Of a stretch of 23,042 bases of DNA, positions 754 through 22,739 are shown one piece after another (within the stretch, counting starts at the first letter, position 1; every line of letters begins with the position of its first letter). The translations under genes were made by a program, and so were the position numbers. This DNA is from a virus. The notes below the pieces were generated by a model, which saw nothing but the letters and a program-made list of their open reading frames with translations, did not search any database and was not told the DNA's origin. Where the stretch lies: IMG/VR virus record IMGVR_UViG_3300008448_000690, positions 1-23,042 of that record. The stretch is one strand, 5' to 3'.

Positions 754-3231
754 ATGGCAGCTATATTTCAATTAAGAAGGGGTACAACCAACATCTCATT
801 AGCAGATGGAGAATTATACTTACATCAGGGTTCCGGTTCATTACAATTTGGTAGCGGGTCTACACAATATAATGTATTAACTTTAAACGCACCTGTAAAA
901 GGTGATATTAATTTAACTGGAAACATAACAGCATCATCTGCATATTTTAGTGGAGATGTTGCAATTTCTGGAAACCTATTTCTTGGAAATGCATCAAACG
1001 ATACAATTACTGCCGGTGGAGAGTTTACTTCAAATTTAATTCCAAACCCAACAAATACATATGCATTGGGTTCTTCTACAAAACTTTGGAAAGAAGTCCA
1101 TGCAACATCTATTTCAGGAGCAATAGCAGCAACAAATGGTGTTATTTCTGGTTCGGCACAAATAGCAGCATCACTACCTACTGGAATCGTTTCAGGTTCT
1201 TCACAAATAAATTTTACACAAATAAATGGGATATCAAATGATATAGTATCTGCATCAACTGATAGTACAAATATTGATTTTACTATTACAAATGGTAATA
1301 TTTCTGCAAATTTAAAAGGTGGAGTTGTATCTGGTTCATCACAAATAATATCGGTGTTAGATTCATTAAATCAATTTAGTAGTTCTATAAATACAGCAAC
1401 TGCTTCATTAAATTTAACAACAGCAAGTTTAAACACATTTACTGCTAGTAATGGTAATATATCATTAAATGAATATACTCAATCTTTAAAAGCGGCAATT
1501 AGTTTAGATACTACAAATGTAACTATATTGGGTGATTTGACCGTAAACGGAACAACTACTCAAATTAACTCTACACAAGTTAATATTGGTGAAAATATAT
1601 TAGAATTAAATTTTGGAGGTTCTGCAAATACTGCTGGAATTTATACAAAAGATGCAACCGGTGGTTCAACTACTTCTGGTTCTTTATTATGGGATTCAAC
1701 AAATGATTTTTGGAAAGCTGGTAAGAAAGATTTAGAATCAAAATTATTATTGGCAGGGGGTGATAATATATTATCGTCATCTGCACAATTAGTTGAATTG
1801 AATTCATTTACACAATCATCTAATTTAAGATTAAATAATTTAGAATCCAAATCAGCTTCGGTTGATATTAGTATTGCAAATTTAAATATAGTATCATCTA
1901 GTGTAAACGATTTTACAGCATCTACTTTAAATAGATTAAATAATTTACAATCAAAATCTTCATCAATTGATATTATTGTTTCCAATTTACAAATATCAAG
2001 TTCAAATTTAAATATAGTAAGCGCATCGTTAAATTCATATACTGCAAGTAATGATATTACCAATACTAATCAAAATAATAGATTAAGTAAATTGGAAGAA
2101 AGTACATCTTCATTAAATACATTTACTGCCTCGGTTGCCGGACATATTTCTGATATTAATGCTTGGACAGGTTCTCAAAAACAAAAAGATACAACACTAG
2201 AAAATGTAACAAGTTCTTTAAATTTACATACCCAATCATTAAACTCATATACAAGTTCAACCGAAGTAAGATTAGATGATTTGGAATATACTGCATCAAT
2301 TTCAATAGGTGCAGGTTTAGCTGGAGAATTTAGTAAAATTAATCAGGTAACCGCTTCATTACAATTATTTACTTCTTCAATTAATACAACGATTAAGACT
2401 AAATTAGATACCGATGGTGTAATAAGTGGTTCATCACAAGTTTCATATATTGGATTATCTAATATACCAGCGGGAATTATATCTTCATCTGCACAAATTG
2501 ATACACTATTTAATATAGATGGAATAGTTAGTGGCTCATCTCAAATTTCATATGTGGGATTGAGTAATATACCGGCCGGAATTATTAGTGGTAGTTCTCA
2601 AATTACATCATTATTACCTTCTGGAGTAATTTCTGGTTCTTCGCAAGTTTATTCGGGTGTAAGTGGAGATATTACAATAGCATCAAATGGTGTTGCAACA
2701 ATTCAAGCAAATTCGGTAGCATTAGGAGTTGATACTACTGGTAATTATATGAGTGATTTAACTCAAGGTACTGGTGTTACAATTTCACATACTCCTGGAG
2801 AAGGTTCAAATGCAACTATTTCGATTGCACAAGCAGTAGCAACAACATCCGATGTACAATTTGGTTCATTAGGAATTGGAACTGCAGCAAGTGGAGTTAG
2901 TGGTGAGATTAGAGCAACTGGTGACATAACGGCGTTTTATTCATCAGATGAAAGATTAAAATCAAATATACAACCAATAGGAGAGGCATTAACGAAAGTA
3001 AATCAAATTAGTGGTAATGTATATGATTGGAAAGAAGGATTCGAAAATATACACTCGCATACTGGTACGGATATAGGAGTAATAGCACAAGAAATTGAAA
3101 AAGTATTACCATACGCAGTAATTGATAGAGATAATGGATATAAAGCGGTAAATTACGAAAAAATAGTTCCACTATTAATTCAAGCAATAAAAGAATTATC
3201 ATCTAAAATTGATAGATTGGAAAGCAAATAG
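754..3231 (+). CDS. Tail fibre with C-terminal S74 intramolecular chaperone peptidase
   Basis: An 825-residue fibre. Residues about 5-40 (FQLRRGTT, GELYLH) resemble the N-terminal domain of major tropism determinant-type phage receptor binders. The middle is Ser/Thr-rich with repeats: a GVISGSSQI-type 9-mer recurs near residues 129, 144, 190, 555, 574, 590, 609 and 624, and NRLNNLESKS / SLNTFTAS heptad-like units suggest a trimeric stalk. Residues 730-825 are a peptidase S74 domain beginning SSDERLKSNI, with the later conserved IGVIAQEIEKVLP and GYKAVNYEKIVPLL. In this family the domain assists trimerisation and then cuts itself off at the Ser of the S-D-x-R-x-K motif, so cleavage near Ser731 is expected. 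The last residues look coiled-coil. The start has an A-rich leader (AAAAGAATTAA) and no Shine-Dalgarno. It is paralogous to the next gene. Confidence 0.9.
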   Translation: MAAIFQLRRGTTNISLADGELYLHQGSGSLQFGSGSTQYNVLTLNAPVKGDINLTGNITASSAYFSGDVAISGNLFLGNASNDTITAGGEFTSNLIPNPTNTYALGSSTKLWKEVHATSISGAIAATNGVISGSAQIAASLPTGIVSGSSQINFTQINGISNDIVSASTDSTNIDFTITNGNISANLKGGVVSGSSQIISVLDSLNQFSSSINTATASLNLTTASLNTFTASNGNISLNEYTQSLKAAISLDTTNVTILGDLTVNGTTTQINSTQVNIGENILELNFGGSANTAGIYTKDATGGSTTSGSLLWDSTNDFWKAGKKDLESKLLLAGGDNILSSSAQLVELNSFTQSSNLRLNNLESKSASVDISIANLNIVSSSVNDFTASTLNRLNNLQSKSSSIDIIVSNLQISSSNLNIVSASLNSYTASNDITNTNQNNRLSKLEESTSSLNTFTASVAGHISDINAWTGSQKQKDTTLENVTSSLNLHTQSLNSYTSSTEVRLDDLEYTASISIGAGLAGEFSKINQVTASLQLFTSSINTTIKTKLDTDGVISGSSQVSYIGLSNIPAGIISSSAQIDTLFNIDGIVSGSSQISYVGLSNIPAGIISGSSQITSLLPSGVISGSSQVYSGVSGDITIASNGVATIQANSVALGVDTTGNYMSDLTQGTGVTISHTPGEGSNATISIAQAVATTSDVQFGSLGIGTAASGVSGEIRATGDITAFYSSDERLKSNIQPIGEALTKVNQISGNVYDWKEGFENIHSHTGTDIGVIAQEIEKVLPYAVIDRDNGYKAVNYEKIVPLLIQAIKELSSKIDRLESK
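2413..2622 (+). repeat. Two tandem 35-codon repeats inside the fibre gene
   Basis: Two 105-base units (2413-2517 and 2518-2622) encode residues 554-588 and 589-623. Both read D-G-(V/I)-(I/V)-SGSSQ-(V/I)-S-Y-(I/V)-GLSNIPAGIIS, then diverge in the last third. A partial third unit (GVISGSSQV) follows. The DNA differs at many third positions, so this is an old, diverged duplication. Confidence 0.75.
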
Positions 3232-3291: not shown

Positions 3292-5472
3292 ATGGGACTT
3301 AAATTTAGACGTGGTACGAACGCACAAAAATCCGGTTCGTTGGCATTTGGAGAACCTTATGTAAATACGGACTTAGGAACATTACAAATCGGTGGATTAA
3401 CCGGAGATATTACACTAGGAGCATCAGGAACAGGAAGTCAGGGTTCATTTGCTGGTATTTCAGGTTCTTCATTAGATATTACAGGTAACGCAAAAATTGA
3501 TGGTAATTTAATATTAGGTGGTACAATTACAATTGGTGATGCATCAACAGATAATGTTGTTGTAAACGCTGATTTGAGTTCATCAATTATACCAAATGAT
3601 GATAACGCATTTGATTTAGGTTCTACTTCTAAAAGATATAGAGCAATTTATGGTACAAATATATATGGTGCTATAAATGCAACAAATGGTGTGATAAGTG
3701 GTTCATCACAATTAAATACTTTAGCAACAACTGGTTCAAATACATTTAAGGGTAACCAAACAATCATAGGTAGTGGTGCAGGATTTGCAGCATATATATC
3801 AACATCTGTAAACGATGCAACATTAGGATTAGATACAACTGCCAATGTAAACGCAATGTATTTCTTAAAAGCTACTGAAAAGAATTTTGAAGTTAGTTTT
3901 GATACAACAAATGCAAATGGTATATTTAGATTACTACCATATGATAATAATAGTTTTATTCAAATAGGCAACCCATCTAATTCAGGTAATAGCAATACCG
4001 ATTATGTATTTGTTGCAGAATCAACTTATGGTAACGTATTGTTAGGTCCAGGAATTGGAAATGCAACATCATATTTAGGAGGTTCAACTCCATTAACTGA
4101 TAAAGTTCAAATAGCTGGTAATTTGTATGTGAGTGGAGCAATAAAAGCCAATTCATTTACGGGTTCAATTGCAGCAACAAATGGTGTTGTATCTGGCTCA
4201 TCTCAAGTAACTTTAAGTTCAACAACTGGATATAGTGATTTTAGTTCTTCATTGAATAGTAGAATATTAACTGAAAAAGGTAGAGTTGATGCAATACTTT
4301 CGGCAGCAGATGCAGATAAAGATTCATTTGCAGAAATTGTAACATTAATTAATTCAGTAGATACGACAAACGATAGTGCATTTGCATCATTTTATACTGC
4401 AAGTGTTGGTAGATTAAATAATTTAGAATCAACATCTGCAAGTTTATTAATTGAAACTGCAAATTTAGAATCATTCAGTAGTTCAGCACTTACAAGATTA
4501 TCGGCATTAGAATCTGAAACTTCTAACTTGGAATCATTTAGTTCTTCTGCATTGACAAGATTGACTAATTTGGAAGGTACTGATATTGGAATTACCTTAA
4601 CAGGTGATGTAACTGGTACAGGAACAATTACAAATTTAGGTAACGTTTCATTCGCAACTACAATAGCAGCAAATTCAGTAGCATTAGGAACTGATACAAC
4701 TGGCGATTATGTTGCAAGTTTAGTAGCAGGTACTAACATTACTCTTTCTAATAATAGTGGTGAAAGTGCAACCCCAACAATCGGTTTAACAAATAACGCA
4801 ATAACAATTGCAGGACAATCAACTGCATTGGGTAGTTCGATAACTGCGGAAACTATTAGAACAGCAATTGGAGCAGTTGTAACTGGTTCGGCTCAAATAG
4901 ATGTTGCATCTACTACCGGTGATATTGCATTAGGAACTAGAACATCTGGTAACTATGTAGCAACAATAACCGGAGGAACTGGCGTATCATCGACAGGTGC
5001 AACAACCGGTGAAGGAATTGCACATACAATTTCAATTGGACAGCCTGTTGCAACATCGGATAACGTTAGATTTAATTCAATTGGTGTTGGTGTAGCAGCA
5101 AGTGCGACTGCAGGTAGAATTGATGCAGCAAACGATATCGTAGCATTTTCATCTTCTGATATTCGTTTCAAAGAAAATATCAAACCAATTGAAAATGCAT
5201 TACAAAAGATTTCTAAAATTAGTGGTAATACTTACGATTGGAAAGAAGAAAACAAAATTGAACACGGATATGAAGGAAACGATGTAGGTGTAATTGCACA
5301 AGAAATCGAAGAAGTTCTACCACAATTAGTTCAAACTCGTGAAAACGGATATAAAGCAGTTAAATACGATAAATTAGTAGCATTATTAATTGAAGGTATT
5401 AAAGAACAACAACAACAAATTCATTCTTTAACAATAGAAGTAGAGGAGTTAAAGAAACAAAAAGGTTTATAA
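3292..5472 (+). CDS. Second tail fibre with C-terminal S74 intramolecular chaperone peptidase
   Basis: A 726-residue paralogue of the preceding fibre. The N-terminus (LKFRRGTNAQKSGSLAFGEP, then a TLQIGGLTGD segment) again resembles the Mtd-type N-terminal domain. A shared segment (IIPNDDNAFDLGSTSKRYRAI, then GAINATNGVISGSSQL) matches IIPN/LIPN...LGSSTKLW...GVISGSAQ in the neighbour. Two near-identical stalk units read NLESFSSSALTRL. Residues about 620-726 form the S74 domain: SSSDIRFKEN, DVGVIAQEIEEVLP, GYKAVKYDKLVALL, then a coiled-coil tail (EVEELKKQ). Self-cleavage at about Ser622 is expected from the family. The glycosyltransferase gene begins 4 bases after the stop, implying coupled translation. 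Tandem paralogues may bind different receptors or form one compound fibre; the sequence does not decide this. Confidence 0.9.
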   Translation: MGLKFRRGTNAQKSGSLAFGEPYVNTDLGTLQIGGLTGDITLGASGTGSQGSFAGISGSSLDITGNAKIDGNLILGGTITIGDASTDNVVVNADLSSSIIPNDDNAFDLGSTSKRYRAIYGTNIYGAINATNGVISGSSQLNTLATTGSNTFKGNQTIIGSGAGFAAYISTSVNDATLGLDTTANVNAMYFLKATEKNFEVSFDTTNANGIFRLLPYDNNSFIQIGNPSNSGNSNTDYVFVAESTYGNVLLGPGIGNATSYLGGSTPLTDKVQIAGNLYVSGAIKANSFTGSIAATNGVVSGSSQVTLSSTTGYSDFSSSLNSRILTEKGRVDAILSAADADKDSFAEIVTLINSVDTTNDSAFASFYTASVGRLNNLESTSASLLIETANLESFSSSALTRLSALESETSNLESFSSSALTRLTNLEGTDIGITLTGDVTGTGTITNLGNVSFATTIAANSVALGTDTTGDYVASLVAGTNITLSNNSGESATPTIGLTNNAITIAGQSTALGSSITAETIRTAIGAVVTGSAQIDVASTTGDIALGTRTSGNYVATITGGTGVSSTGATTGEGIAHTISIGQPVATSDNVRFNSIGVGVAASATAGRIDAANDIVAFSSSDIRFKENIKPIENALQKISKISGNTYDWKEENKIEHGYEGNDVGVIAQEIEEVLPQLVQTRENGYKAVKYDKLVALLIEGIKEQQQQIHSLTIEVEELKKQKGL

Positions 5473-5475
5473 TTA

Positions 5476-6474
5476 ATGTATGATGTTTACTACACTACCG
5501 CGGGTGGACCTTGGTTCAACAGCGGTGCAGATATATGGGTAACCGAATGGATAAAAGAAGTGGCACCTCATTTAGAAGTGAAGCCACTTCTACTTTTCCA
5601 TAGAAAGAAACCGGATAACTACGAAGAATTTCCAATTGATATTGACCACGTTTGGGAAACGAATGAATTAGAAATAGATAATATTCTAAAATCAGCTAGA
5701 AAGGTACACATTCTTCATGGTCATTATACTCCTACTACCGCTATTCATAATAATTTAGATAAAATTGATTCAATTATATTTCATAATTTAACAAAAGTAT
5801 CTATGTTATCCCAGATGGGAAAAGATGAATATCTTCATTGGTATGGAAATTGGGAATGGGAAAGTGAGTTAATAAATAAAATTAAAAATAAGATTTGGGT
5901 AGGATTATATCATTTTCCATATAAAACAGAAAATTTATATCATATTCCAAATACTTACGAATTTATAAATAATAAAAAATTAAGTGATTCTACAAAAGTT
6001 GGATTTGCTGCAAGAGCAGAGGGTAGAAAAAATGTAGAATATATAAATGAATTGGAAAGTTATATATTTACCAATTCGGATACATTTAATAAATATTATA
6101 GAAAAAAATATGGATATACATTCGAAAAAGGAAAAGTTTACAAATTTGATTATAAGCATAAGGAAAGGTTCTATGGACTTGATTGGGGAATATCTCACTC
6201 TTGCTTTGAACATGAACCCTTCGGATATGGAATATTTGAAGCAGTTGATTGGGGTAAACTACCGATATTACATGAAAAGTGGCACGACCCACTTGATTAT
6301 AAGTACAAAGCGGTTGACGAGGAGACATTTAAAAAGACCTACAAAACGATTTGTCAGGATGATTACGAAACCCGTAATGAGGAGTTTAAAAAATTAAAAA
6401 ATTGGATGATTAAACACTTTTCTAACAAAGAAGTGTGGAAAGAAAAACTTTTAGATATTTATAACGGAGAATAA
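5476..6474 (+). CDS. GT4-like (GT-B fold) glycosyltransferase
   Basis: A 332-residue protein with features of retaining GT-B glycosyltransferases. An N-terminal TTAGGPWFNSGAD segment looks like the Gly-rich donor/acceptor loop. Residues 175-187 read VGFAARAEGRKNV, in the place where GT4 enzymes have a (G/A)R-x-x-x-KN phosphate-binding strand-loop. The nucleotide-sugar motif E-x7-E is present at Glu247 and Glu255 within EHEPFGYGIFEAVDWGKLPI. No signal peptide or membrane segment is visible, so it should act in the cytoplasm of the infected cell. It lies between fibre genes and begins 4 bases after an S74 fibre, which suggests that it modifies a virion protein; modification of host surface sugars or phage DNA is also possible. 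Donor and acceptor cannot be read from the sequence. Confidence 0.75.
   Translation: MYDVYYTTAGGPWFNSGADIWVTEWIKEVAPHLEVKPLLLFHRKKPDNYEEFPIDIDHVWETNELEIDNILKSARKVHILHGHYTPTTAIHNNLDKIDSIIFHNLTKVSMLSQMGKDEYLHWYGNWEWESELINKIKNKIWVGLYHFPYKTENLYHIPNTYEFINNKKLSDSTKVGFAARAEGRKNVEYINELESYIFTNSDTFNKYYRKKYGYTFEKGKVYKFDYKHKERFYGLDWGISHSCFEHEPFGYGIFEAVDWGKLPILHEKWHDPLDYKYKAVDEETFKKTYKTICQDDYETRNEEFKKLKNWMIKHFSNKEVWKEKLLDIYNGE
6455..6464 (+). promoter_or_regulatory. Candidate late promoter motif ATATTTATAA inside the end of a gene
   Basis: This copy lies within the last codons of the glycosyltransferase gene (encoding D-I-Y-N) and 31 bases upstream of the ATG at 6486. The intergenic gap here is only 11 bases, so a promoter for the Hint-LamG gene would have to overlap the upstream gene. 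Confidence 0.35.
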
Positions 6475-6485
6475 CACTTTATACA

Positions 6486-8222
6486 ATGGCAAGAACAAAT
6501 TTATCATTAGGTAACTTATATAGAGCAGTAAGTGGTTCTGCTAGAGCAGGAGCAGTTTCAATTGGAGGTCTTGGTGGTCAAACTACAAATGGTTCTTTAT
6601 TATCATTTGCAACTGATGCAATAACCATCGCACCACCGACATACACTTATATAGTAGAAAGTACAACTGAAAACGGACAGTTCTCATTTAGTTCAACTGG
6701 TTCTTTATTCTATTCCAAAGTTCAACAACAATATAATAATTATACGTGTTCTTTTAATAATGCAAATTTCTCAACAGGAAGTAAGACAGTATCTACTGGT
6801 CCTACATTATTTCCAATAACACCTGCATCAATAGCACAATCTACATATTCTGAAGCATCATCTGTTTTAACAATGAAATATGAAGATGGATATAATGTAA
6901 ATGCAACAAATTATGGGAGTGTAACGACAAAAACATTATATGCAGTAGATGTTTATAATACAATTAACCAACCAGATTTTTGTTTATTATTTGGTACAAA
7001 GGTACAATTAACCGATGGTACTGAAACAAATGTAGAAGATTTAAATGTAGGTGATACTATTAAAGCATGGGTTCCTACTAATTTACCAGATGAAACTCAA
7101 TCTACGGAAAGTGACCAGGTTGATTGGAGATTCCATATGTTAGAAACAAATAGTGGAGAATATCAAGAAGTAGTTGTATCAGATGTTGTATTCAACTTTG
7201 CAAGTGGATATTTTTCAATAAATGATGGATTAATTAAAGCAACCGGAACACATCCAATTTGGGTATGGGATGCCGAAATACAAAAATATAAATTTAAATT
7301 AGCAGAAGATATTTTACCTGCTGATAAAATTGTAAAATACGATGAATTCGATGGTGTTCAAGAAATAGAAGTTTATAATATTGAAATAGTAACCGAAGAT
7401 GTAGAAATTGTAACACTTAATGTAGAAAATTTTGACGTTTATTTAGCAAATGGAACCATTTCGCACAACAAAGGTACAACGACACAACCATACATTCCAT
7501 CTTCTGGATTAAGAATGTATTTAGACCCATCAAAAGCATCATCAACAGATGGCACAGTCGGTACGGATTGGTTAGATTTGACCGGATATGGTACAGGTGT
7601 TAGACCTGCAGGTGCACCAAATGGTCTTGGTATTAGTGGTGGAAACCCAACGTATAATAATGGTGCAAGTAGAAAAGAAAAATATTGGTCATTGGATACT
7701 AATAAGTTTTGGTATAAAGATGGTTCATCAAATATAAATGGTGGATATACTCAATTTAACACAACTGCATATTCGGTAATAGCTTGGGTGAGATTCACAT
7801 CTCATCCTGCAAATGGGTATTATCAAATATTTGGTAAACACGATAATGGAGCATCACCGAGAGAAATTGCAGTTTATTTAAATTCAAATGGTAGTGGTAC
7901 TTATTTTATACACGATGGTACGACTGTACAATTTAATAGTAATACATTTACTCTTTCATTGAATACTTGGTATATGGTTACATACACCGCAGCATTAAAT
8001 GGTACAAACGTTGCTTATACTGATACTACATCAAGAGGAACTGTATCGAATGGTTCAAAAAATTATACTACATCGGGATTAATTCAAATTGGTGGTGGAT
8101 ATGGTGATAACAATTACTATTTCAATGGACAATTTGGTCCTGTGTTATTTTACAATACACAATTAAGTGGAACGGATATTACACAAGTATATAATTATTT
8201 CCAACCGACATATAGACCATAA
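6486..8222 (+). CDS. Virion/tail protein with intein-like Hint domain and C-terminal LamG (concanavalin A-like) domain
   Basis: A 578-residue three-part protein. Residues 1-165 are a Ser/Gly-rich N-terminal part of unknown type, probably the virion-attachment region. Residues 166-328 are a Hint domain: block A starts at Cys166 (CLLFGTKVQLTDGTE, then VEDLNVGDTIKAW), block B carries T-G-T-H at 253-256 (ATGTHPIWVW), and block F ends NFDVYLANGTISHN at 327-328. Residues about 337-578 form a LamG-3-like beta sandwich (GLRMYLDPSKA, YSVIAWVRF, NTWYMVTYTA, YFNGQFGPVLFYNTQLS). The residue after His-Asn is Lys329, not Cys, Ser or Thr, so ordinary splicing by transesterification is not expected; cleavage at one or both ends is. 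No homing endonuclease motif is seen. The LamG part could bind host glycans. Its location between fibre and sheath genes supports a tail-adhesin role. Confidence 0.85.
   Translation: MARTNLSLGNLYRAVSGSARAGAVSIGGLGGQTTNGSLLSFATDAITIAPPTYTYIVESTTENGQFSFSSTGSLFYSKVQQQYNNYTCSFNNANFSTGSKTVSTGPTLFPITPASIAQSTYSEASSVLTMKYEDGYNVNATNYGSVTTKTLYAVDVYNTINQPDFCLLFGTKVQLTDGTETNVEDLNVGDTIKAWVPTNLPDETQSTESDQVDWRFHMLETNSGEYQEVVVSDVVFNFASGYFSINDGLIKATGTHPIWVWDAEIQKYKFKLAEDILPADKIVKYDEFDGVQEIEVYNIEIVTEDVEIVTLNVENFDVYLANGTISHNKGTTTQPYIPSSGLRMYLDPSKASSTDGTVGTDWLDLTGYGTGVRPAGAPNGLGISGGNPTYNNGASRKEKYWSLDTNKFWYKDGSSNINGGYTQFNTTAYSVIAWVRFTSHPANGYYQIFGKHDNGASPREIAVYLNSNGSGTYFIHDGTTVQFNSNTFTLSLNTWYMVTYTAALNGTNVAYTDTTSRGTVSNGSKNYTTSGLIQIGGGYGDNNYYFNGQFGPVLFYNTQLSGTDITQVYNYFQPTYRP
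6981..7469 (+). other. Hint (intein-like autoprocessing) domain coding region
   Basis: This stretch runs from the TGT codon of Cys166 (6981) to the AAC codon of Asn328 (7467-7469) and encodes 163 residues, the size of a mini-intein without endonuclease. Codon use and AT content match the flanking gene, so a recent insertion is not indicated. The codon at +1 is AAA (Lys), as in intein-like domains that cleave rather than splice. Confidence 0.8.
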
Positions 8223-8289: not shown

Positions 8290-10617
8290 ATGGCAGAGAA
8301 ATTAGTATCACCAGGCGTTTTCACAAGAGAAAATGACCTTTCATTCTTACAACAAGGAGTTGGAGAAATAGGAGCAGCGTTTATAGGTCCTTTTAAAGAA
8401 GGCCCATTAACACCAACAATTGTAAGTTCACAAGCAGAATTTGAAACATTATTTGGTAGTGTTGATGACACTTATTATACTCCTTTAGCAGTACAATCAT
8501 ATTTAAGAGAAGCAGGAACTGCAACAATTTGTAGAGTAGCTGGTGCAGCGGGATATACCGAAACTGCTCCTTTATTATTAGTAGCAAACACAACTCAATC
8601 AGCCGATGGAGCAGCACATTCTGCATCATTAGGTATTCTTTTTAATACATCTGCAAGTGCAAATGTAGGATTTACTGGAACTCTTACATCCGATAAAGAT
8701 GGTAATGGTGATTTTTCAATATTATTAAGTGGTAGTGGTGTAACTCACACAGGATATAGTGCATCTTTAAATTTAACAGATGTAAGTGATATCGAAGCGG
8801 TATTTGGTTCATCTGCATATGGTTCAGCAAGAGCTTACGCATACGCATTCTTTAAAGAAAACGGATTTATATATAATACCGGTTCTTATACATTATCTGG
8901 AACTGACGGAATTGGTTCTGGTTCAGTTACTTCATCTTTCAACTCACATACAACTGCAAGTGTAATTGTATTAGCAGACCAAAAATTTAGTGGTTCAACT
9001 GGTACTGGTGAAGCATGTGAAGCATTGACTCCATATATACAATCTCAATTAATCAATAGTACAAGACATAATTTATTTCAAATAGAAACAATAACCGCAG
9101 GAAACGTTGCAAATACTAAAATAAAAATTGGTATTTCAAATGTTAAAGCGGCTGGTTCAATAAATGGAACTGATTACGGTGCATTCACAATTGTAGTAAG
9201 AAATTTCTCTGATACTGATAAAAAGAAAAGTGTAATTGAAACTTTTGCAAATGTAAATTTAGACCCTAATTCTCCTAACTTTATTAGTAGAGTAATCGGT
9301 GATAGAAAAAGAACAATCAATCCAAATACTGGTAAAATAACAGAAATTGGCGATTGGGTAAATAATTCTAGATATATTAGAATTACTAATTTAAATGTAA
9401 ATGCACCTGTACAAGCAGTACCATTTGCACACGCAGCATATCAATTACCAGTAAATGCAGGAGCATACGCATCATTGGTACCGAGAGTAACATTCTCAAC
9501 TGGTTCAGTAACCGATTCTTCAAAATATAGTGGTATTGATTTAGATAATAATGGTGATAATAAGATATACATGAAACCAATTCCTGTTAGTGCGGGTAAT
9601 GGTTCTAACTCTGTATTCTCATTAGATACTATTTGTGGATTAAATTTAACTTCAAATGTTTCAACTGATGTTGCAAAAAGACAATTCGTTGTAGCATTCC
9701 AAGAAGGATTTGATGGACACTCTCCGGCTAACAATGCAGCAGATTTAAACCCTGCAACAACAGCAGGTAAAGCAGCATATCAAAAACATATTGCAGCATT
9801 ATCAAACGCTGATGAATATGATATCAATATGGTTGTTGCACCTCATGTTAATAGATACGACCATAGTTCAGTTTGGACTTCAATATTAGATATGGTAGAA
9901 CAAAGAGCAGATGCATTCTTCATTGGAGATGCGGGTAACGCTTCAACTTCTTTATCAGCAACTATAACACAAGCACAATCAGTAGATTCAAACTACGCAG
10001 CGGTTTACTACCCTTGGGTTAAAACAATTGATTTAAACACAAACAAATTAATAACAGTCCCACCATCAGTATTATTACCTGGAGTATTTGCGGCAAACGA
10101 TAATGTTGCAGGAGAATGGTTCGCACCAGCTGGTTTGAATAGAGGTGGATTAGTGGGAGCAGTTAGTGTATTAGATAGATTATCTCAATCTGAAAAAGAT
10201 GATTTATACGAAGGTAAAGTAAATCCAATTGTACAATTCCCAGGACAAGGTATCGTAGTATTCGGACAAAAAACATTACAAGATAAACCATCTGCATTAG
10301 ATAGAATCAACGTAAGAAGATTATTATTGACTGTTAGAAAATATATCGCATCTACTTCTAGATATTTAGTATTCGAACAAAATTCGGCAGAAACTAGAAC
10401 TAAATTCTTAAACATTGTAAACCCTTATTTAAGTGGAATACAAAGTAGACAAGGTTTATACGCATTCAAAGTGGTAATGGATGATTCAAACAACACACCA
10501 GATGTAATTGATAGAAACATTTTAAAAGGAGCTATCTACTTACAACCAACAAAGACAGCGGAATTTATTCAAATTGATTTCAACATCTTACCAACTGGCG
10601 CAAGTTTTAACGGATAA
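8290..10617 (+). CDS. Contractile tail sheath protein
   Basis: A 775-residue sheath protein, longer than T4 gp18 (659). The N-terminus has the family signature (KLVSPGVFTRENDLSFLQ, then GEIGAAFIGPFKEGP), and the second segment has the typical F-x-x-LFG (AEFETLFGSVDD) and CRVAG. Residues about 100-230 are a Ser/Gly-rich, probably surface-exposed insertion. The C-terminal domain is well preserved: NVRRLLLTVRKYIASTSRYL, FEQNSAETR, then DNTP-like DDSNNTPDVIDRN and the end strand AEFIQIDFNILPTGASF, which in the family links neighbouring subunits into the contracting lattice. The tail tube gene follows after 46 bases, the usual sheath-tube order of myoviruses. The ATG at 8290 matches the conserved N-terminus and sits behind an A-rich leader. 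Confidence 0.95.
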   Translation: MAEKLVSPGVFTRENDLSFLQQGVGEIGAAFIGPFKEGPLTPTIVSSQAEFETLFGSVDDTYYTPLAVQSYLREAGTATICRVAGAAGYTETAPLLLVANTTQSADGAAHSASLGILFNTSASANVGFTGTLTSDKDGNGDFSILLSGSGVTHTGYSASLNLTDVSDIEAVFGSSAYGSARAYAYAFFKENGFIYNTGSYTLSGTDGIGSGSVTSSFNSHTTASVIVLADQKFSGSTGTGEACEALTPYIQSQLINSTRHNLFQIETITAGNVANTKIKIGISNVKAAGSINGTDYGAFTIVVRNFSDTDKKKSVIETFANVNLDPNSPNFISRVIGDRKRTINPNTGKITEIGDWVNNSRYIRITNLNVNAPVQAVPFAHAAYQLPVNAGAYASLVPRVTFSTGSVTDSSKYSGIDLDNNGDNKIYMKPIPVSAGNGSNSVFSLDTICGLNLTSNVSTDVAKRQFVVAFQEGFDGHSPANNAADLNPATTAGKAAYQKHIAALSNADEYDINMVVAPHVNRYDHSSVWTSILDMVEQRADAFFIGDAGNASTSLSATITQAQSVDSNYAAVYYPWVKTIDLNTNKLITVPPSVLLPGVFAANDNVAGEWFAPAGLNRGGLVGAVSVLDRLSQSEKDDLYEGKVNPIVQFPGQGIVVFGQKTLQDKPSALDRINVRRLLLTVRKYIASTSRYLVFEQNSAETRTKFLNIVNPYLSGIQSRQGLYAFKVVMDDSNNTPDVIDRNILKGAIYLQPTKTAEFIQIDFNILPTGASFNG

Positions 10618-20668: not shown

Positions 20669-21430
20669 ATGAAATACATCACACAATCAGAAATAGAACA
20701 ATTGTTGCATGACTGGAAATACAAAGGATATGCAATTGTTGATGTTTTAACAGAATCGGAGGTAGATGAAATTATAGTAGAATTGGACAAATTGCGAATT
20801 AATAGAAATCAATCTGATAAAAAGTGGGGAGAATATGAACCATATATGCATCCACACAAAGAATCCGAATTAATTGAAAAAGTATTAGCACATCCAAAGG
20901 CAATTGAGTGTATGGAATTACTTTTAGATTCGGAAATACAAGGAGTTCAAACTTGGGCGTATTTTAAACCACCTGGAGAATTGGGTAGAGATGCACATCA
21001 AGACGGATTTTATTCTCAATCGGGTTGGAATAAAATAGCAAACATTGCGATATCATTAGATGATTCGGATGAAAGTAATGGTGGATTATGGGCATTTGAA
21101 GCTTCACATTATTTACCTTTGTTAGATATTGAAGTTGATGAGGATAGAGTTAAATCAAATCCAGGTAATTGGAGAAATGAAAGAGGTAAAGCAAGTAAAA
21201 TGCCAGAAGGACACAACTTTCCAAAAATATATGCAACTCTTAAAAAAGGACAAGCATTTTTAATACATTCACATTTAGTACATGGTTCCGATACAAATAA
21301 TGGAAATTCATTTAGACGTTCTATATTAAGTGGATATATGTTGAAAGGTGGGTATTTAAGACAGGGTGAACATATGAAAAGAGAACCAATAGATGTTTAT
21401 GAAATTAGAGATAAACATTGGAAAGATTAA
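20669..21430 (+). CDS. PhyH-family 2-oxoglutarate/Fe(II)-dependent dioxygenase
   Basis: A 253-residue protein of the phytanoyl-CoA dioxygenase superfamily. The metal-binding HxD is H110-Q-D112 (GRDAHQDGFY) and the distal His is H205 (HSHLVHGSDTN), followed by R216/R217 (NSFRRSI) suited to bind the 2-oxoglutarate carboxylate. Between them are the family's strand NIAISLDDSDESNGGLWAFE and the P-G-like turn before the distal His (KKGQAFLIH). Length and motif spacing are normal, so it should be an active oxygenase hydroxylating an unknown small molecule, nucleotide, sugar or protein side chain. No signal peptide is seen. Environmental phages often carry such enzymes; substrate cannot be told from sequence. 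It has its own promoter-like block and does not overlap neighbours, so it is likely controlled separately from the virion genes. Confidence 0.88.
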   Translation: MKYITQSEIEQLLHDWKYKGYAIVDVLTESEVDEIIVELDKLRINRNQSDKKWGEYEPYMHPHKESELIEKVLAHPKAIECMELLLDSEIQGVQTWAYFKPPGELGRDAHQDGFYSQSGWNKIANIAISLDDSDESNGGLWAFEASHYLPLLDIEVDEDRVKSNPGNWRNERGKASKMPEGHNFPKIYATLKKGQAFLIHSHLVHGSDTNNGNSFRRSILSGYMLKGGYLRQGEHMKREPIDVYEIRDKHWKD

Positions 21431-21467: not shown

Positions 21468-22739
21468 ATGAATCTAATTGAAGATAAACGTACCCTACTT
21501 TCGTTTTTAGGGGGTAATGTAAATATTGACCTTATTGTTCCTGTATGGAGTTCTCATAGAGCACATCCATTGGGGAATCGTTTGTCGTTCATTTATTATA
21601 GACAAATGAATGGCGAAGATGGAATAATAAATTTCAATCATATAGATGCAAAGAAATTAGACAAATTTGACATATCCAAAATAATTCATGTTAATACATT
21701 GGTTTTAGACAATAGGTATTTAAACACCATAGGATTGGATTATGAGTGGGTTTACTTTGAAGAGAATGGGAAACCATTTATCTTTAATGAGTTCGTTATT
21801 GGGGTTTATAGGGGGTATAAAAACGACTTTAAAGAGTTGAATGATTGTGTACCTTTAATGAAATGGTATGAAGTTCTAAAAACAATCCCAAATATCAGTA
21901 CACGAAGAGAGTGGGATAGAAAATATACATCAGCAATACAAACATTAGGAAGGTTGGAAGGGGCTGGGGTAAAGGTCGTTAGAGAAAAATTTATTGATAG
22001 TTTTAACTTTAACGAGCAATACTTGCGTAAAAATGATATCGTCTACACACAATACAACCCATATACAACAACCGGTAGACCATCCAATCGTCACCTTAAC
22101 GTTAATTACTCTGCTCTTAATAAATCGGATGGAACGAGAGAGTGCTTTGTTAGTAGGAATCCAAATGGTACTTTATTACAATTTGACTATGAGTCTTATC
22201 ACATTCGTTTGATTGCGAAAATGGTTGGATATGAATTTCCAAAGGGGATATCGGCCCACCAACACCTTGCAAACCTTTATGGGTGCGATTACGAAACGGC
22301 AAAGAAGATAACCTTTACATACCTTTATGGTGGATTAGATGATAATGCAAGAGGGATACCATTCTTTCAAAAGGTGGATGAATATATTAAGGGATTATAC
22401 CAAACGTTCGTCATTTCTGGAAAACTTACGACACTCTTATATAAAAGAGAAATACCATTTGATAGAATAGAAGGTGCAAACGAACAAAAGGTATTCAACT
22501 ATTTACTACAATCATTGGAGACTGAAATCAATTATATGAAGATTGGTGAGGTGTTGGAGTATTTGAGTGGTAAAATGTCGAAAATGGTATTTTATACATA
22601 TGATGCCTTTGTTATAGATACACATCCTATTGAAAGAGAAAATCTTTTAAACGACATTAGAGAAATAATGGAGAAGGGTGGTTTTCCGGTCAAAATAGAA
22701 GAAGGAGATAATTACAACAATTTAGTGGGAATAGATTAA
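21468..22739 (+). CDS. Short family A (Pol I-like) DNA polymerase
   Basis: A 423-residue protein with the three polymerase motifs of family A. An upstream TTGRPSNRHLNVNY (201-214) matches the T-x-TGR-x-S...N-x-N motif. Motif A is LLQFDYESYHIRLIAKMVG with Asp240. Motif B is ETAKKITFTYLYGG (276-289), keeping the Lys (K279), the aromatic (F283) and Tyr-Gly (287-288), but the position equal to E. coli Arg754 is Tyr275. Motif C is FYTYDAFVID with Asp379, while the usual next Glu is Ala380. Both catalytic Asp are therefore present. The first 140 residues show no convincing DxE exonuclease motif, so proofreading is probably absent; the protein is far shorter than Pol I (928). G-rich codons such as GGG and GGT are used more than in the virion genes, suggesting a different origin or expression class. 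Replication, repair or gap filling are all possible. Confidence 0.82.
   Translation: MNLIEDKRTLLSFLGGNVNIDLIVPVWSSHRAHPLGNRLSFIYYRQMNGEDGIINFNHIDAKKLDKFDISKIIHVNTLVLDNRYLNTIGLDYEWVYFEENGKPFIFNEFVIGVYRGYKNDFKELNDCVPLMKWYEVLKTIPNISTRREWDRKYTSAIQTLGRLEGAGVKVVREKFIDSFNFNEQYLRKNDIVYTQYNPYTTTGRPSNRHLNVNYSALNKSDGTRECFVSRNPNGTLLQFDYESYHIRLIAKMVGYEFPKGISAHQHLANLYGCDYETAKKITFTYLYGGLDDNARGIPFFQKVDEYIKGLYQTFVISGKLTTLLYKREIPFDRIEGANEQKVFNYLLQSLETEINYMKIGEVLEYLSGKMSKMVFYTYDAFVIDTHPIERENLLNDIREIMEKGGFPVKIEEGDNYNNLVGID

Follow-up and report, generated by a model that had tools for sequence, protein, structure and literature searches.

The window, by which we mean the whole analysed stretch of 23,042 bases (IMG/VR virus record IMGVR_UViG_3300008448_000690), carries the tail locus of what is, judging from its genes, a contractile-tailed phage. 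Genes for two S74-type tail fibres (754-3231 and 3292-5472) precede a 332-aa gene and a 578-aa gene, the latter encoding an N-terminal part, a Hint domain and a LamG domain; a tail sheath gene, a tail tube gene and a tape-measure-like gene follow (Table 1). The sheath gene is found downstream of the Hint gene in 117 of the 117 loci listed. A promoter scan around the Hint gene returned no more matches than in shuffled sequence. Further along, the window holds a PhyH-like 2-oxoglutarate dioxygenase gene (20669-21430) and, after it, a short 423-aa polymerase-A-like ORF (21468-22739) with only a partial match to the Pfam model.

Table 1. Features of the Hint locus and related genes (window positions unless a locus is named; "listed" refers to the relatives listed)
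Feature	Position	Strand	Basis
GT-B glycosyltransferase-like gene (332 aa), directly upstream of the Hint gene	5476-6474	+	GT-B fold match; conserved neighbour
Tail-locus protein, 578 aa: N-terminal part, Hint, LamG	6486-8222	+	ORF; 119 distinct full-length relatives listed, 55-100% identity
N-terminal part, residues 1-165, presumably virion-side	6486-6980	+	conserved in all relatives
N-terminal junction flank, residues 151-165, ending NQPDF ahead of Cys166	6936-6980	+	conservation, dN/dS
Hint domain, residues 166-328 (163 aa)	6981-7469	+	profile, HHalign, AF2 fold match
Cys166 (block A), predicted N-to-S acyl shift nucleophile	6981-6983 (TGT)	+	119/119 listed
Block B T253-G-T255-H256	7242-7253 (T253 from 7242, T255 from 7248, H256 CAT 7251-7253)	+	T253, T255, H256 119/119 listed
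Asp317, where block F usually has His	7434-7436	+	119/119 listed
His327-Asn328, end of block G with the predicted site of Asn cyclisation	7464-7469 (H327 CAC 7464-7466, N328 AAC 7467-7469)	+	119/119 listed
Lys329-Gly330, +1/+2 of the C-flank	7470-7475 (K329 AAA 7470-7472, G330 from 7473)	+	119/119 listed
Whole C-terminal (LamG) part, residues 329-578, 250 residues after N328	7470-8219	+	
LamG/concanavalin A-like domain, residues 419-565	7740-8180	+	Laminin_G_3 4.8e-13
Tail sheath gene, downstream neighbour	8290-10617	+	Phage_sheath_1; phrog_23 2.9e-75
Triple Hint/Hint-like protein in the same phages	L275:604-2871; L276:616-2880; L277:625-2832; L278:682-2979	-; +; +; -	

A Hint domain between two parts of a tail-locus protein

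An earlier note, made from the sequence alone, had described an intein-like Hint domain with Lys at +1 that separates the virion-side portion of the protein from LamG. Profile searches, fold and conservation bear this out: the domain at 6981-7469 is genuine, far beyond chance, and a codon check found the residues named there (Cys166, T-G-T-H at 253-256, His327-Asn328, Lys329) and their coordinates exact, with C166 opening and N328 closing the interval. Pfam and NCBIfam scans of the whole 578-aa protein report no Hint, because its score falls below their cut-offs; even scanned alone, the domain stays under those of Pfam. The PHROG scan matches phrog_38766 (1.3e-7) across residues 148-330. Searched by sequence against solved structures, the Hint profile finds BIL2 of Tetrahymena (6Y75, 1e-5) as its best match and also BIL4 of Clostridium (2LWY, 0.009), and with HHalign three solved Hint sequences are matched at E 2e-9 and a probability of 96%.

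The AF2 model, built from 62 sequences of the window family (mean pLDDT 85.8), agrees. Its Hint part matches BIL2 6Y75, BIL4 2LWY and the NpuDnaB intein 4O1R with target-normalised TM scores of 0.78, 0.80 and 0.73, respectively; among viral models a 153-residue protein reaches 0.88, and its accession and length indicate that it is probably the phage NCTB protein. This fold match, together with the conservation described below, rules out a chance motif. On the C-terminal, sugar-binding-like side, Laminin_G_3 scores 49.9 bits against a curated cut-off of 27.6. Residues 1-165 have no match in the Pfam scan and no confident relative among named phages.

Cys at position 1 and the block B TxxH, present in all 119 relatives listed, join the fold in placing the domain in the Hint superfamily. 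The A-type of bacterial intein-like (BIL) domains has a C-terminal His-Asn and no +1 nucleophile, and the B-type is without block G (PMC4031507, PMC7765530). Since block G, the C-terminal His-Asn, is present, the B-type label first given to this domain is rejected: His327-Asn328 followed by Lys329 rather than Cys, Ser or Thr, in 119 of the 119 proteins listed, is the A-type pattern. Cys, TxxH and His-Asn are intact, as the note described, but the usual catalytic set is not complete: for the block-F His every one of the 119 relatives listed has Asp (Asp317), as against His in BIL4, BIL2 and 8W20. On its sequence we class the domain as an A-type-like BIL and not as a member proper, because block F deviates, even though it is block G that separates A from B in the published scheme.

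An ordinary parasitic intein, or a class 1 intein, is disfavoured: Lys occupies +1 in all relatives listed, so that the +1 nucleophile is missing, no empty allele is found among the matches listed, and 163 aa are too few to accommodate a homing-endonuclease domain. Phage mini-inteins of terminase, polymerase and ribonucleotide reductase share the Hint fold, but they sit in conserved enzymes with Cys, Ser or Thr at +1 as a rule, whereas the window Hint sits in a variable adhesin, lacks such a residue and is never absent among the matches listed.

Conservation of the catalytic residues and the junctions

Relatives were collected by IMG/VR scans, taking the best 80 loci per scan, which gave 119 distinct full-length proteins including the window's own; they are 55-100% identical to the window protein, 65% on average. 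All close relatives are metagenomic, and none of the records is rated complete. A search of one genome per GTDB species found no bacterial relatives.

C166, T253, T255, H256, S326, H327, N328, K329 and G330 are unchanged in all 119 proteins listed, and so is Asp317. At the invariant catalytic and flanking residues the codons vary silently, with the exception of C166, which is TGT in all 119. H327 is encoded by CAC in 44 and CAT in 75 of the relatives listed, N328 by AAC in 66 and AAT in 53, K329 by AAA in 112 and AAG in 7, and G330 by four different codons.

The most conserved 15-residue segments of the 578-aa protein begin at residues 151-155. A simple Nei-Gojobori calculation on 600 randomly drawn pairs gives residues 151-165 a dN of 0.016 against a dS of 0.745 (mean dN/dS 0.02), and residues 329-345, behind the Hint, a mean dN/dS of 0.12; the means by part are 0.33 for the N-terminal part, 0.27 for the Hint and 0.40 for the LamG part. 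Residues 159-163 are also the least confident part of the AF2 model (pLDDT < 50). A junction before Cys166 that is most conserved and at the same time least ordered in the model is what one would expect of a constraint set by chemistry rather than by packing.

LamG, in turn, is the most variable region of the protein, and the part from Lys329 onwards is fast-changing, recombining and the most exchanged between relatives. One relative (L003) is 100% identical to the window protein over residues 1-330 and only 69% identical over residues 431-578.

Complete ORFs of the family keep the order N-terminal part, Hint, LamG, a few broken copies aside. Neither a complete relative without the Hint nor a natural split at the Hint ends is found among the matches listed; as these are the best 80 loci per scan, distant relatives without Hint could exist. 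An apparent split at the Hint end in L195 is ruled out: a single in-frame TGA at residue 321 (L195:5955-5957) interrupts an otherwise intact frame, and it is either a nonsense change or a sequencing error. L058 and L197 are broken copies as well.

The invariance of all catalytic residues other than that of block F, of both junctions and of Lys+1 is indirect evidence that the Hint domain is very probably active. The view that its fold is kept as a rigid, non-reacting spacer is very improbable: the block-F His is lost, +1 is not Cys, Ser or Thr, and chains of beta domains are common among viral adhesins, but invariance of the remaining catalytic residues and both junctions in 119 relatives listed, in the face of silent codon change, is unexpected for a spacer.

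Other Hint proteins of phages

The closest homologous group consists of jumbo-phage tail-protein Hints (PHROG 38766), whose named carriers are Erwinia phages Y3, Alexandra and Yoloswag, Dickeya AD1, Yersinia fHe-Yen9-02 and phage NCTB. HHalign gives E 1.6e-19 for the phage-tail Hints and 2e-9 for the BILs; the window Hint thus seems nearer to the former, with the E-values only a guide, as the profiles differ in size. Overall, the C-terminal phage-tail Hint group covers 48 Erwinia phage records together with Dickeya AD1, Yersinia fHe-Yen9-02, Alcaligenes Afa-NA1, Salmonella Sen-NF and NCTB. Block F has Asp in nine of the ten such Hints aligned, and the insert after block A is partly common to them and the window Hint. 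Their Hints, however, end the protein behind collagen-like or other repeats, leaving about 1-13 residues past His-Asn, whereas the window Hint is internal and ahead of LamG; at +1 they mostly carry Thr, otherwise Val, Met or Ala, with Lys also occurring in the group, in contrast to the fixed Lys of the window family.

A Hint protein of LR756508, a 484-kb uncultured phage, shares the HNK end, the Asp in block F and an adjacent, 36%-identical glycosyltransferase gene, but its Hint is C-terminal (..FHNKH*) and it has no LamG. Used as a query, it found no IMG/VR relatives.

The same phages as those of the window family (contigs of 145-245 kb) encode a second, otherwise unrelated protein of 735-765 aa in which three Hint or Hint-like domains follow one another in tandem. 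Neither Pfam nor PHROG gives a match to its N-terminal part. In L275, L276 and L277 the first domain ends in His-Asn immediately ahead of the second domain's Cys, and two phages have ..VHNK* as the C-terminus of this protein. A 511-aa homologue (L360:1501-3036, + strand) has one degenerate Hint-like stretch, which ends in QHN and precedes a Cys-rich tail of 31 residues (GTCYGWCGAWMCAVWCCSACGFCGGQPPSKL) resembling a releasable peptide.

Annotators already know of Hints in phage tail proteins: some proteins of the C-terminal group are annotated as tail proteins, "contains intein domain". Our literature search of open-licence papers turned up no work on phage adhesins with a Hint. What is new is that the Hint lies internally, ahead of LamG, and that Lys at +1 is fixed, an arrangement we did not find described; also new is a GT-B glycosyltransferase-like gene that is almost always adjacent. 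Among relatives the product of this gene shares about 80% identity, and the fold of its model (pLDDT 72.8) resembles GT-B enzymes with a best E of 1.4e-5. In 140 of the 144 loci listed the gene immediately precedes the Hint gene; three others have a truncated copy, and in the fourth, LR756508, the gene comes after the Hint protein rather than before it. The predicted enzyme may glycosylate the adhesin.

Possible fates of the adhesin

Self-rearrangement of the adhesin backbone after synthesis is probable, as the Hint is intact in every relative listed and always followed by Lys. From the observed sequence, fold match and conservation we infer that the domain reacts, that both its ends do so and that its flanks are rejoined. 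Four readings nevertheless have to be kept apart (rejoining, cleavage, conjugation and inactivity), because A-type BILs mostly cleave, block F is changed and there are relatives with hardly any C-flank.

The reading that we tentatively favour, at somewhat less than an even chance, is excision of the Hint with LamG rejoined to the N-terminal part through an amine of Lys329. The 578-aa protein would start out as a precursor whose A-type-like Hint is active, and in it Cys166 would take the acyl group of Phe165 to form a thioester. Cyclisation of Asn328 would then cut before Lys329 and let the 163-aa Hint leave, and an amine of Lys329 (the alpha-amine, as proposed for A-type BILs, or that of the side chain) would most likely pick up the N-terminal part. 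The mature tail adhesin would thus consist of the N-terminal part and LamG, about 415 aa.

Known systems bear on this route. A-type BILs are able to splice even when +1 carries no nucleophile, as Asn cyclisation releases an amine that attacks the thioester (PMC4031507), and BIL4, as cited in PMC7664689, is reported to ligate without nucleophilic side chains. BIL4 (Clostridium thermocellum, PDB 2LWY) resembles the phage domain in its Hint fold, Cys1, TxxH, terminal His-Asn and non-nucleophilic +1, and A-type BILs such as BIL4 also lie internally within variable surface-type proteins. It differs in that the phage Hint has Asp for the block-F His, an insert of ~22 residues after block A and an invariant Lys+1-Gly+2, and belongs to a viral virion protein. 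BIL2 (Tetrahymena thermophila BUBL1; PDB 6Y75, 6TMM), the best profile match among solved structures, joins its N-flank to lysine side chains of other chains, e.g. ubl5 and Ras (PMC8616854); the ciliate domain differs in sitting between ubiquitin-like domains, keeping its block-F His and having a known lysine acceptor. An invariant Lys+1 beside an intact Asn fits either the A-type alpha-amine route or a BIL2-like use of lysine.

Rejoining is further favoured by the constraint on the catalytic residues, both junctions and Lys+1, by the lack of a Hint-less or split protein among the complete relatives listed, and by the consideration that a LamG adhesin would be useful only if kept on the virion. 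It is weakened by the block-F His being Asp here. This His is generally thought to aid Asn cyclisation, and its substitution may slow the reaction. The invariant Lys+1 could instead serve the rate of cyclisation or folding, which also counts against rejoining.

Cleavage without rejoining is the next reading, on the unlikely side; the earlier note had proposed a cut into three pieces. The Hint would cut at one or both ends, with the pieces held together non-covalently or LamG released, e.g. as an assembly aid or decoy. A-type BILs yield mostly cleavage products (PMC4031507, PMC7664689), and Lys is not a classical +1 nucleophile. Moreover, the distant tail-protein Hints stand at the C-terminus, where there is little to rejoin and only cleavage or transfer would be useful. 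Release of LamG would, however, lose the presumed receptor-binding part, and simple hydrolysis needs neither a conserved C-flank nor the Lys+1 side chain.

Rather unlikely is a specific form of ligation in which the side-chain amine of Lys329 would attack the Cys166 thioester and Asn328 cyclisation free the Hint, leaving the virion part and LamG joined by a lysine isopeptide bond. Transfer of the N-terminal part from the Cys166 thioester to an amine or hydroxyl elsewhere, the alternative of the earlier note, has a precedent in BIL2 handing ubl4 to Ras but is improbable; it could cross-link the virion or attach the protein to a glycan. For it speak BIL2 as the nearest solved sequence relative, with its conjugation to lysines of other proteins (PMC8616854), the related virion proteins with a C-terminal Hint and almost no C-flank, and the glycosyltransferase gene as a constant neighbour. 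The conserved C-flank and LamG right behind the Hint nonetheless offer an acceptor in cis, and no acceptor is known.

Phage Hint domains are mostly regarded as removable inteins in enzymes. Here, the Hint is fixed and under constraint in the tail adhesin of a large freshwater phage family, placed just ahead of a variable, exchanged LamG. If its flanks are rejoined or transferred through lysine, ATP-free ligation chemistry would operate in virion assembly or attachment, and in the isopeptide case lysine-based branched protein splicing would be built into a viral tail. The family would then also provide protein ligation with a Lys+1 Hint already optimised by nature.
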